DNA of 64,000 nucleotides from Subtercola boreus (GTDB lineage Bacteria > Actinomycetota > Actinomycetes > Actinomycetales > Microbacteriaceae), in NCBI RefSeq assembly GCF_006716115.1, contig NZ_VFOO01000001.1:186001-250000 (forward strand), read 5' to 3'. Each line of letters opens with the position of its first letter. The first letter of the stretch is position 1. Below the pieces are notes generated by a model. The model had not been told where the DNA came from. It saw only the letters and a list, made by a program, of their open reading frames with translations, and ran no database searches. The translations under genes and the position numbers were made by a program. Below are positions 54,063 through 57,338 of the stretch, piece after piece.

Positions 54063-55253
54063 GTGGCCAAGGCCAAGTTCGAGCGGACTAAGCCGCACGT
54101 AAACGTCGGAACAATCGGTCACGTCGACCACGGAAAGACCACGCTCACCGCGGCCATTTCCAAGGTTCTGGCTGACAAGTACCCGGCGTACAACAAGACC
54201 TTCAACTTCGACCAGATTGACTCTGCGCCCGAAGAGAAGCAGCGCGGTATCACGATCAACATCTCGCACATCGAGTACGAGACCGAGAAGCGCCACTACG
54301 CGCACGTCGACGCCCCGGGTCACGCTGACTACATCAAGAACATGATCACCGGTGCAGCTCAGATGGATGGCGCGATCCTCGTCGTCGCCGCCACTGACGG
54401 TCCGATGGCCCAGACGCGTGAGCACGTGCTGCTCGCCCGCCAGGTCGGCGTCCCGTACCTGCTCGTCGCCCTGAACAAGGCTGACGCTGTCGACGACGAA
54501 GAGATCCTGGAGCTCGTCGAGCTCGAGGTTCGTGAGCTCCTCTCGAGCCAGAACTTCGACGGCGACAACGCACCGGTCATCCGCGTGTCGGCGCTCAAGG
54601 CTCTCGAGGGCGACCCCGAGTGGACCAAGTCGATCGAAGAGCTGATGGACGCGGTCGACGCTTCCATCCCCGACCCGATCCGCGACAAGGACAAGCCGTT
54701 CCTCATGCCCATCGAGGACGTCTTCACGATCACCGGTCGTGGAACCGTCGTCACCGGCCGTGCAGAGCGCGGAACCCTCGCCATCAACTCCGAGGTCGAG
54801 ATCGTCGGCATCCGCCCGACGCAGAAGACCACGGTCACGGGTATCGAGATGTTCCACAAGCAGCTCGACGAGGCGTGGGCCGGCGAGAACTGTGGTCTGC
54901 TTCTCCGTGGCACCAAGCGCGAAGACGTCGAGCGTGGCCAGGTCGTCGTCAAGCCCGGTTCGGTTACCCCGCACACCGGCTTCGAGGGCACCGCCTACAT
55001 CCTGTCGAAGGATGAGGGTGGCCGTCACAACCCGTTCTACACGAACTACCGTCCGCAGTTCTACTTCCGCACCACCGACGTCACCGGCGTCATCACGCTG
55101 CCCGAGGGCACCGAGATGGTCATGCCCGGCGACACCACCGACATCAGCGTTGAGCTCATCCAGCCCATCGCGATGGAGGAGGGCCTCGGCTTCGCCATCC
55201 GTGAAGGTGGCCGCACCGTCGGCGCCGGCACGGTGACCAAGGTCACCAAGTAG
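54063..55253 (+). CDS. tuf: Elongation factor Tu
   Basis: The 396-residue GTPase that carries aminoacyl-tRNA to the ribosome. P-loop GHVDHGKTT starts at Gly19, switch I ends [10 protein letters not shown], then [12 protein letters not shown] near 82 and NKAD near 137. Domain 2 begins with [18 protein letters not shown]. The C-terminus [14 protein letters not shown] is complete. GTG 54063 with GAGGA upstream. Last gene of the str operon, followed by two small repeats and a strong terminator, and then by a degenerate relative of its own G domain. Confidence 0.98.
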
Positions 55254-55266
55254 CACCTGTGTAAAT

Positions 55267-55316
55267 GGTTCGCCCTTCGGGCGACACCTCTACGGTTCGC
55301 CATTCAGGCGACACCT
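55267..55316 (+). repeat. Tandem duplicated hairpin unit after tuf
   Basis: Two 23-base copies (55267-55289 and 55294-55316) differ at two positions and are offset by 27 bases. Each contains a small stem, TCGCCC/GGGCGA in the first and TCGCC/GGCGA in the second, so the mRNA tail has two adjacent stem-loops before the terminator. Confidence 0.6.
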
Positions 55317-55326
55317 AGCACAGCAC

Positions 55327-55366
55327 AGAAGGGCCGCACTCCTCCGGGGGTGCGGCCCTTCTTTTT
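55327..55366 (+). terminator. Terminator of the str operon
   Basis: AGAAGGGCCGCAC (55327-55339) pairs perfectly with GTGCGGCCCTTCT (55350-55362) and is followed by a run of T (55362-55366). It is the clearest intrinsic terminator in the window, and the next gene begins only 19 bases beyond it. Confidence 0.92.
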
Positions 55367-55384
55367 GAGTCATAAACTGATGGA

Positions 55385-55903
55385 ATGTCAGATAATGTCA
55401 GCGCGGAGCTGATTTCCGTTCTTGCGCTGGGAGATCATGACCACGGTGCGACCACAGTGGCGACAGCGCTGCGGGTCCGCCTTGCGGAACGGAGCATCGC
55501 GAACGTGGTGCTGGTGGATACCTGGGCCTATGACGATGTCGTACGCGGGCTCGCCGCCGGGGAATATCGCGCGGAAATTGCGCTGCTGGTTGTCAGCGCT
55601 GCCATCGGGACTACGCCGAGGTCCGCCTTGTTGCTGAGGATGCTTCGGGCACGGCGATTTCGCCGGGTGGTCGTTGCTGTGACCTTCACGGATGTCGTTG
55701 ACGATGACCGGCTGGTTGGGATCACGTTGCACGAGATCCGCGTCGACACGGCACGTTACGGTTTTCCCGACGCTCCTCTCGTGATCGTCAAACACGCGCG
55801 TACTGGAGCAGGCGGAGTCGACTCTGCCCGTTCACTGGACCGCTGCATCGCAGCGCTCAGCACGGTCGTCAATCCCTCGGGAGAATCTGGAGGGCCGGGG
55901 TAG
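55385..55903 (+). CDS. EF-Tu G-domain-like pseudo-GTPase, truncated but intact frame
   Basis: 172 residues that read as a shrunken EF-Tu G domain. ALGDHDHGATT (14-24) aligns with the tuf product's [11 protein letters not shown], but the P-loop Lys is Ala. About 35 residues holding switch I are absent. VDTWAYDDVVRGL (44-56) replaces [32 protein letters not shown] matches [33 protein letters not shown] replaces [14 protein letters not shown], losing Asn and Lys of NKxD. Nothing matches domains 2 and 3. GTP binding is therefore unlikely. There is no good ribosome binding site. It lies directly after the tuf terminator and 9 bases before the topoisomerase gene. Homology is read by eye. Confidence 0.65.
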   Translation: MSDNVSAELISVLALGDHDHGATTVATALRVRLAERSIANVVLVDTWAYDDVVRGLAAGEYRAEIALLVVSAAIGTTPRSALLLRMLRARRFRRVVVAVTFTDVVDDDRLVGITLHEIRVDTARYGFPDAPLVIVKHARTGAGGVDSARSLDRCIAALSTVVNPSGESGGPG

Positions 55904-55912
55904 GGTCGGGGG

Positions 55913-56884
55913 ATGGTCAGGTTGCGGCGCAGCGATTCGAGCGGGCGGGGGCTGCGACGGCTCCGGGCCGGCAGGGGGTTCACTTACCAGGATGTCGATG
56001 GCACCACGCTGCGGGATCCGGAGCTGCGCGCTCGTATCGAGCACCTCGCCATTCCGCCGGCCTGGACGGATGTCTGGATCGCGCCGCACGCGAACGGCCA
56101 CATCCAGGCCACCGGGACCGACGCTGCTGGGCGCCGCCAGTACATCTACCATCCGACCTGGCGCGAGCAGAAGGACCGTATCAAGTTCGACAGGGCCCTC
56201 AGCCTCGCCGAGTCGCTGCCGCCCGCGCGGCGGAAGGTGACGATGCATCTCCGGCACGAGCATCCAGACCGTGAGCGGGCGGCCGCTGCGGCATTCCGGA
56301 TGCTCGACCAGGGCTCGCTCCGGGTGGGGAGTGAGAGGTACGCCGAAGAGCACGGCAGCTACGGCCTCTCGACCCTCCTCTGCGCGCATGTGGTTGTACG
56401 GGACGATGTCGTGCACCTCGCATTCCCGGCGAAGAGTGGGCAGGCGTGGGATTCGGACATCCGTGACGCCGAACTGGCGCGCATCGTCTCAGCGCTGAAG
56501 CGTCGGGGCCCGAACGCTCATCTGCTGGCTTTCCGGGATGAGCGGGGACGCTGGCATCCGCTCGGTGCCCTCGAGATCAACTCGTATGTGAAGGAGCAGA
56601 CCGGCGGGGACTTCACTGCGAAGGACTTCCGCACACTGCACGGCACCCTGGCCGCCGCGATCAGTCTCGCGAAGGCGGGACCGCAACCGACAGAGTACAA
56701 GCGCAAGCGCGCGCTCGCCCAGAGCATGCGGGACGCCGCGGCGGTGCTCAGCAACACCCCCACGATTGCGAAGACCAGCTACGTCGACCCGCGTCTCGTC
56801 GACAAGTACACCGAGGGCCTGACGATCGATCCGACCCGCCTCGCGTCAGCGGAGTCGGAGCTCCGCGCCCTCCTCTTCGAGTGA
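55913..56884 (+). CDS. DNA topoisomerase IB (poxvirus-like)
   Basis: A 323-residue monomeric enzyme that relaxes supercoils through a 3'-phosphotyrosine. The N-terminal domain has YQDVDGTTLRDPELRARIEH, LAIPPAWTDVWIAPHANGHI and QATGTDAAGRRQYIYHP. Catalytic residues lie in LRVGSERYAEEHGSYGLSTL (Arg), KEQTGGDFTAKDFRTLHGT (Arg/His) and SYVDPRLVDKY (the nucleophile Tyr, near 290). ATG 55913 lies 9 bases after the EF-Tu-like gene, so they may be co-transcribed. These enzymes are patchily distributed in actinomycetes. Confidence 0.92.
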   Translation: MVRLRRSDSSGRGLRRLRAGRGFTYQDVDGTTLRDPELRARIEHLAIPPAWTDVWIAPHANGHIQATGTDAAGRRQYIYHPTWREQKDRIKFDRALSLAESLPPARRKVTMHLRHEHPDRERAAAAAFRMLDQGSLRVGSERYAEEHGSYGLSTLLCAHVVVRDDVVHLAFPAKSGQAWDSDIRDAELARIVSALKRRGPNAHLLAFRDERGRWHPLGALEINSYVKEQTGGDFTAKDFRTLHGTLAAAISLAKAGPQPTEYKRKRALAQSMRDAAAVLSNTPTIAKTSYVDPRLVDKYTEGLTIDPTRLASAESELRALLFE

Positions 56885-56897
56885 GCCTCTGACGGAC

Positions 56898-57338
56898 TCA
56901 GTCCGCCCAGTGGCGCGCCGCCGCCTTGTCGAGCAGTGTGACCAGTTCGGCTGACGGCAGGGAATCGCGAGGAGGCGCCATGACGTAGTCGTGGTCGTAG
57001 ATCAGTTCGAGCAACCCGAATCCGTGTCGCACGCCGTCGAGCTCCACGTCGCCGGTCACTCGCAGAGTAATCTCGTCGTCGTCGAGCGCGGCGGTCAGAA
57101 CGGTGAATTCGTGTCCGGCGATGAAGTCGGACTCGACGAACGAAACTTCTCCGTCGTTTGCGATACTCAGTCGACACAGCGAGACGCTCCGCAGTTCCAG
57201 GCGGCAGTGGCGAAGCGGGGCAGCCATCCCCATCTCCCAGGCGCAATCGACGAGGAACGATCGCGTGCGAGTCGCCAGGTCTTCTTCGGACAGGGAGATG
57301 GTGCAATCATGCATCCACTGCCAGAGCCGAAGGTTCAT
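56898..57338 (-). CDS. Uncharacterised protein
   Basis: A 146-residue protein I do not recognise. It begins MNLRLWQWMHDCTISLSEED and looks like mixed alpha/beta with alternating acidic strands (ALDDDEITLRVTGDVELDG, LLELIYDHDYVMAPPRDSLP). No membrane segment, signal peptide or motif. Codon use looks like its neighbours, and it fills the space between a convergent topoisomerase gene and a divergent aldo/keto-reductase-like gene, supporting a real gene. ATG 57338. Confidence 0.6.
   Translation of the reverse strand: MNLRLWQWMHDCTISLSEEDLATRTRSFLVDCAWEMGMAAPLRHCRLELRSVSLCRLSIANDGEVSFVESDFIAGHEFTVLTAALDDDEITLRVTGDVELDGVRHGFGLLELIYDHDYVMAPPRDSLPSAELVTLLDKAAARHWAD

Follow-up and report, generated by a model that had tools for sequence, protein, structure and literature searches.

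Directly downstream of tuf in Subtercola boreus lies an open reading frame, here called P0001, whose predicted 172-aa product, judged by sequence comparison, is a diverged and motif-dead G domain of the EF-Tu/SelB class by descent. We found it in a 64,000-nt stretch of DNA, referred to below as the window. We favor, with about even confidence, the reading that P0001 is a real, probably leaderless and lineage-specific gene for an expressed pseudoGTPase domain. In other words, we infer that the gene is expressed and that its product serves for binding without catalysis. Few bacterial proteins are as conserved as the translational GTPases, and a nucleotide-dead G domain with a kept core would show what stays useful once the switch is gone.

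A G domain without working motifs next to tuf

P0001 runs from ATG to TAG over 172 codons without a stop, and starts 22 nt after a strong terminator of tuf (Table 1). An earlier note on this DNA had reported an intact frame directly after the tuf terminator, which we confirm. Such a long open frame is weak evidence by itself, because in the GC-rich window long frames (740 and 421 aa) are open even antisense to fusA and tuf. The case for P0001 therefore rests on homology rather than on the openness of the frame.

Table 1. Features of the locus, with positions in the window
Feature	Position	Strand	Evidence
tuf (EF-Tu), intact	54063..55253	+	Pfam GTP_EFTU, D2 and D3, all far over cut-off
Intrinsic terminator of tuf, 16-pair stem	55327..55362	+	Similar stem after tuf in the Subtercola loci printed
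TAAACT, -10-like TANNNT hexamer, exactly 6 nt 5' of the P0001 ATG (leaderless-type start)	55373..55378	+	
P0001, putative 172-aa pseudoGTPase, a lone G domain of the EF-Tu/SelB class in which no G1-G5 motif is in working form	55385..55903	+	Profile, sequence and model matches
TAGGGT, -10-like hexamer for topoisomerase IB, starting with the three bases of the P0001 stop codon	55901..55906	+	
DNA topoisomerase IB, often a neighbor of tuf	55913..56884	+	Pfam Topoisom_I, 4.8e-27
146-aa ORFan	56898..57338	-	No Pfam or NCBIfam match
252-aa aldo/keto-reductase-like protein, 1.5 kb from P0001	57388..58146	+	Pfam E 0.0016, below cut-off

The product matched the Pfam GTP_EFTU profile (E 3.1e-5; 24.1 bits, just under the curated cut-off of 26.5 bits), the NCBIfam EF-Tu profile TIGR00485 (E 7.2e-10; 30.3 bits, short of the curated cut-off of 522.4 bits) and the NCBIfam SelB profile TIGR00475 (E 3.8e-5; 22.6 bits, short of the curated cut-off of 242.25 bits). 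EF-Tu chains in the PDB matched it down to E 5.9e-9 in a sequence search, and a SelB profile match reached E 2.6e-11 at Z 100000. Chance similarity to EF-Tu was ruled out by three profile and sequence searches. The earlier note, which had aligned the product to the EF-Tu G domain and proposed a profile search for a P-loop GTPase hit, is borne out on both points: hits to GTP_EFTU, EF-Tu and SelB were found, and the strings that it quoted align as it had described. Of the 10 PF00009 matches in the same genome at E <= 0.01, with in-frame neighbors counted, P0001 is the sole one under the cut-off.

The alignment shows how each motif has changed. In G1, GHVDHGKT has become GDHDHGAT (DHGKTT to DHGATT) and the P-loop Lys is gone. 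About 35 residues, comprising switch I (RGITI, G2) and strand beta2, are missing, and their removal is in frame. G3 reads DTWAY instead of DAPGH and G4 reads TFTD instead of NKAD, each with its Asp (the first of DAPGH) retained, while the SAL of G5 is replaced by HAR (KHA in some alignments). Domains 2 and 3 are absent: the frame stops after the G domain, and Pfam gives GTP_EFTU only. The losses listed in the earlier note (P-loop Lys, switch I, DxPGH, two NKxD residues, domains 2 and 3) are as claimed, with the first Asp of DAPGH retained. Beta1, alpha1, beta3, alpha2, beta4, alpha3, beta5, helix D, beta6 and alpha5 are all retained, and no frameshift occurs along the aligned domain. SelB proteins continue beyond the G domain with two barrels and C-terminal winged helices; that layout was not found in P0001, which at 172 aa is a G domain alone.

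In P-loop GTPases, nucleotide binding depends on the P-loop Lys, switch I and NK. Because all three are lost, P0001 is very unlikely to bind nucleotide, and GTP binding and hydrolysis have probably been lost altogether. The roles of G1-G3 are set out in sections of PMC3037878.

The start of P0001 carries a -10-like TANNNT hexamer at the spacing of a leaderless-type start. Within the window, this layout (TANNNT 6 nt before ATG) precedes 7 of the 1263 ATGs on both strands, P0001 and topoisomerase IB included, with 6/604 on the plus strand and 1/659 on the minus strand. The topoisomerase IB gene has the same layout in six of the seven loci titled Subtercola (L122-L127) and lacks it in S. vilae (L135); over all 80 topoisomerase IB loci, only 35 have TANNNT 5-8 nt 5' of an in-frame start. 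According to part of PMC3898074, TANNNT is the usual -10 in Mycobacterium tuberculosis. Searches at P0001 found no sigma-70-type promoter and no Rfam match to an RNA element, and the surroundings held no telling repeats of the kind that mobile elements leave as scars. Two 23-nt direct repeats (91% alike) lie between tuf and its terminator at positions 55267-55316, and one or two similar units are present 3' of tuf in several Subtercola relatives. The nearest named loci of the topoisomerase IB in the window are those of S. boreus strains, at 86-92% identity.

P0001 was found in a single genome

P0001 was found in one genome and is so far a single sequence. We found no orthologue among the matches listed for 398 family, 396 order, 396 phylum and 296 class genomes, nor in 60 relatives or 12 genus genomes (the genome itself included in each set). 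These draws are overlapping samples; the longer match lists were cut after ranking by E-value, which should leave any true orthologue near the top. The non-self matches listed are in frames at least 300 aa long, except for two frames of 271 aa (G998) and 242 aa (G951), both close to the end of a contig (no more than about 240 and 160 bases away, respectively). Frames of 300-378 aa occur among the matches in the relatives, family and phylum sets and were judged by length alone; the best listed matches that were read are EF-Tu or SelB. Low-sensitivity scans of genome and viral contigs with exact 8-residue peptides, which reach only close relatives, returned no P0001 either.

The same picture emerged at the site itself. 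Of 80 loci fetched by their topoisomerase IB, 61 have tuf upstream on the same strand inside the stored flank, and no P0001 orthologue was seen at any of these 61. By position, each of the 14 top P0001 matches from the 80 loci sits inside tuf, and in the loci of 16 relatives the sole match at E <= 1e-3 is likewise inside tuf. The earlier note had suggested an undescribed family in this lineage and a search for its members beside tuf in related genomes. With no orthologue in the samples or at the 61 loci, such a family does not hold up, and the search ended in an outcome that the note had named beforehand as speaking against its reading.

The gap between tuf and topoisomerase IB (L124:2596-3983, for instance) varies across Subtercola loci, being short or holding either an ORF of 329-386 aa or P0001. 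An ORF-by-ORF reading of nine genus relatives showed the 329-386-aa ORF in seven, and it is missing from G002 (gap of about 156 bp) and G003. The single gap ORF that was tested matched an AbiEi antitoxin at 6e-5. In the literature searched, no bacterial EF-Tu G-domain pseudoGTPase was reported.

Similarity beyond that left by neutral drift

We simulated neutral drift starting from the 171 codons of the genome's own tuf that align to P0001, letting them diverge to the same identity (39/171) in 2000 runs. The frame stayed free of stops in 46 runs. The BLOSUM sum of P0001 is 165, compared with a simulated mean of 69.8 and a maximum of 143, so that none of the 2000 runs reaches it; conservative replacements make up a share of 0.386 in P0001, where the simulated runs have a mean of 0.188 and a maximum of 0.315. 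This excess is somewhat overstated, because the real alignment was optimized and the simulated ones were not. The simulation shows that the P0001 protein was under constraint at some time during its divergence, a constraint that may be past. It also upholds the statement of the earlier note that P0001 is not simply a fresh pseudogene.

Composition counts against P0001 being a gene. Codon usage barely favors the P0001 frame (0.048 bits/codon, vs 0.758 for tuf), and its GC3 is low at 0.676. When ORFs were crudely called in 16 stretches sampled from the genome, the median GC3 was 0.86, with 19 of 280 calls below 0.70, several of which resemble antisense frames. The genome also has a block of low-GC3 genes (0.55-0.59) at L217:7154-10370 (C1, about 3.107-3.110 Mb), possibly an acquired island.

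The strongest competitor is that P0001 is a relic, in which an acquired or duplicated translational GTPase was once selected, was trimmed to a domain, and now drifts without function; its frame would look intact because stops are rare in a high-GC genome. We give this a fair chance, though a smaller one than that of an expressed pseudoGTPase domain. It agrees with the absence of an orthologue from every sample, with the loss of the active site and of domains 2 and 3, and with the other ORF or the little sequence that occupies the site in the nine genus relatives read. The weak codon signal also fits, as does a GC3 close to that of the neighboring aldo/keto-reductase-like orphan (0.664). However, none of the few neutral runs that remained open kept the similarity, the aligned domain has no frameshift, and the start signal is clean. 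Since neutral drift fails to reproduce the similarity and the start is of the leaderless type, we favor an expressed pseudoGTPase domain.

Source within the EF-Tu/SelB class

P0001 is 22.5% identical to the Subtercola tuf representative and 37.5% identical to the SelB of locus L094. In total, 10 of 13 SelB rows (27.5-37.5%) are closer to P0001 than the tuf representative is, and the three best EF-Tus, all from distant Actinomycetota, reach 25.8-27.5%. In a comparison from which minus-strand loci are missing, the local score of P0001 is 89 against its own tuf and 137 against the best distant actinomycetotal EF-Tu. With rows labeled SelB or EF-Tu by motif, P0001 scores 46.3 bits with a SelB profile (13 rows) vs 39.0 bits with an EF-Tu profile (55 rows), a gap that is biased towards SelB because 7 of the 13 SelB rows (L038, L094-L097, L101, L104) were fetched for their likeness to P0001. 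The 13 SelB rows, these 7 included, also entered the tree. The best SelB match, that of L094, was the sole one at E <= 1e-9 in 30 genomes of the order to which L094 belongs, and selB gave no match over the cut-off in 12 genus genomes (that of P0001 and 11 relatives).

In a tree of 50 rows, P0001 and the 13 SelB rows group together (100/100); the P0001 branch has a length of 10, and the program issued a long-branch warning. AU tests do not reject a grouping of P0001 with the EF-Tu clade (p 0.43), with the Subtercola tuf representative (p 0.25), or with eight Microbacteriaceae EF-Tus (p 0.20). A firm SelB ancestry was given up, the branch being extremely long and the tests leaving EF-Tu open. 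By these comparisons, the source of P0001 would be a member of the EF-Tu/SelB class, with SelB slightly ahead, and trees cannot settle which.

P0001 does not visibly appear to be a copy of the adjacent tuf. An ancient tandem duplicate of that gene, as the earlier note had proposed, would have diverged very fast in place, and we consider this origin quite improbable. The position right after tuf speaks for it, and so do the AU tests, none of which rejects an EF-Tu grouping. Set against this are the low identity to Subtercola tuf, which most SelB rows exceed, the higher score with a distant EF-Tu, and the SelB profile score above that of EF-Tu, although the SelB rows were partly chosen by likeness. 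In addition, the P0001 matches in relatives lie inside tuf, both in the 16 loci and for the 14 best over the topoisomerase loci, and a copy made in place must either postdate the divergence of the near relatives or have disappeared from them.

Predicted fold and candidate partners

An AlphaFold2 model of P0001 built with 19 EF-Tu rows reached a pLDDT of 70.0 and a pTM of 0.67, and its five strands and five helices follow the order of a G domain. All of its 50 listed PDB matches are EF-Tu or complexes with it (E down to 2.3e-9), a result that is partly circular and not independent because the model was built with EF-Tu rows. The single-sequence model is weaker (pLDDT 60.4, pTM 0.57) and has no PDB match at E <= 0.001. 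The structural comparison with EF-Tu that the earlier note had suggested thus gave EF-Tu matches for the EF-Tu-aligned model and no match at that threshold for the single-sequence model. On the retained elements and the aligned model, P0001 would keep a five-stranded alpha/beta core.

A stand-alone G domain that neither binds nor hydrolyzes GTP, and whose core is retained, would act by binding only. The likeliest partners of P0001 would be EF-Ts and ribosomal bL12, which touch helix D of EF-Tu, and the partner-bound domain may be a weak competitor or a tether at the translation machinery. These two are named because helix D of P0001, DDDRLVGITLHEIR, keeps an Ile, a Glu and an Arg aligned to what we take to be positions L148, E152 and R154 of E. 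coli EF-Tu. However, counts of positions similar to the genome's own tuf (12/19 in helix D, 18/28 in beta1/P-loop/alpha1 and 5/17 in alpha3) show helix D to be preserved to no greater degree than the fold core, so the partner is a weakly supported guess. The positions in helix D belong to the general fold as well. Within the reading of P0001 as an expressed pseudoGTPase domain, we hold a helix D partner to be unlikely. Binding of EF-Ts and L7/L12 by EF-Tu helix D is described in portions of PMC5770553 and PMC5574714, the former of which names an L148A mutant. If P0001 binds EF-Ts or bL12, it would be a small probe of those interactions.

Orphan genes beyond topoisomerase IB

Aldo/keto reductases rely on a catalytic Tyr, Lys and His, all of which are absent from the aldo/keto-reductase-like protein in an alignment with four relatives. 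Across 30 genomes, this protein matches itself at 2.0e-165 and four others at 6.1e-5 or weaker, and a tblastn search of the tuf-side loci from 16 relatives found nothing at E <= 1e-3. The ORFan matches only its own genome among 60. It is striking that two dead orphans, each a copy of a common protein, lie within 3 kb, and the three genes share a lowered GC3 of 0.66-0.77. The locus might be read as a pseudoenzyme cluster of one Subtercola lineage, in which a dead EF-Tu/SelB G domain and a dead aldo/keto reductase, unrelated and deeply diverged but in frame, flank the conserved topoisomerase IB, together with the ORFan; we give this reading little credence. If it were true, these proteins would owe their retention to a role in binding, as decoys or as sensors, at a type of bacterial locus not recognized before. 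The second dead enzyme nearby makes pattern vs coincidence testable.

We consider it highly improbable that P0001 is cargo of a hot spot for defense or toxin genes and serves as a decoy, drawing off toxins or phage factors that attack EF-Tu or a different translation factor: the 329-386-aa ORF in the gap of most genus relatives read, the one tested being AbiEi-like, and the second dead-enzyme orphan across the topoisomerase gene point that way, but PADLOC gave no match, P0001 has no phage or plasmid relative, and no toxin partner was recognized. Searches for a phage, plasmid or defense origin of P0001 likewise returned no match (best PHROGs E 0.19), and this origin was rejected.

Comparison with known systems

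P0001 and EF-Tu have in common helix D, the strings DHG.TT and VDD...E.R, and the strands and helices that form the core of domain 1, whereas only EF-Tu has the P-loop Lys, switch I, PGH, NK and domains 2 and 3. With the G domain of bacterial SelB it shares a tail resembling DAP.V.V..ARTGAG, along with the higher profile score, but bacterial SelB has intact G motifs and further domains. Like P0001, eukaryotic Ski7 is a relative of translational GTPases outside canonical elongation, as described in part of PMC4933942; unlike P0001, it is eukaryotic, has an N-terminal region for other partners, and is reported there to bind guanine nucleotides.

The closest precedent is aSelBL, the archaeal SelB-like proteins that sections of PMC3037878 describe as having disrupted G domains with domains II and III kept. 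Both show disrupted G motifs and in-frame deletions in the G domain, with a fold that is kept in aSelBL and probably kept in P0001. They differ in that the deletion takes the P loop in aSelBL and switch I in P0001, and in that aSelBL is, in the same sections, a family present in many archaea whereas P0001 is bacterial and from one genome. Moreover, aSelBL retains domains II and III, which bind tRNA and the ribosome, while P0001 is a G domain alone and falls outside that family. P0001 would thus be a bacterial, domain-only counterpart of the archaeal aSelBL, and its reverse case.
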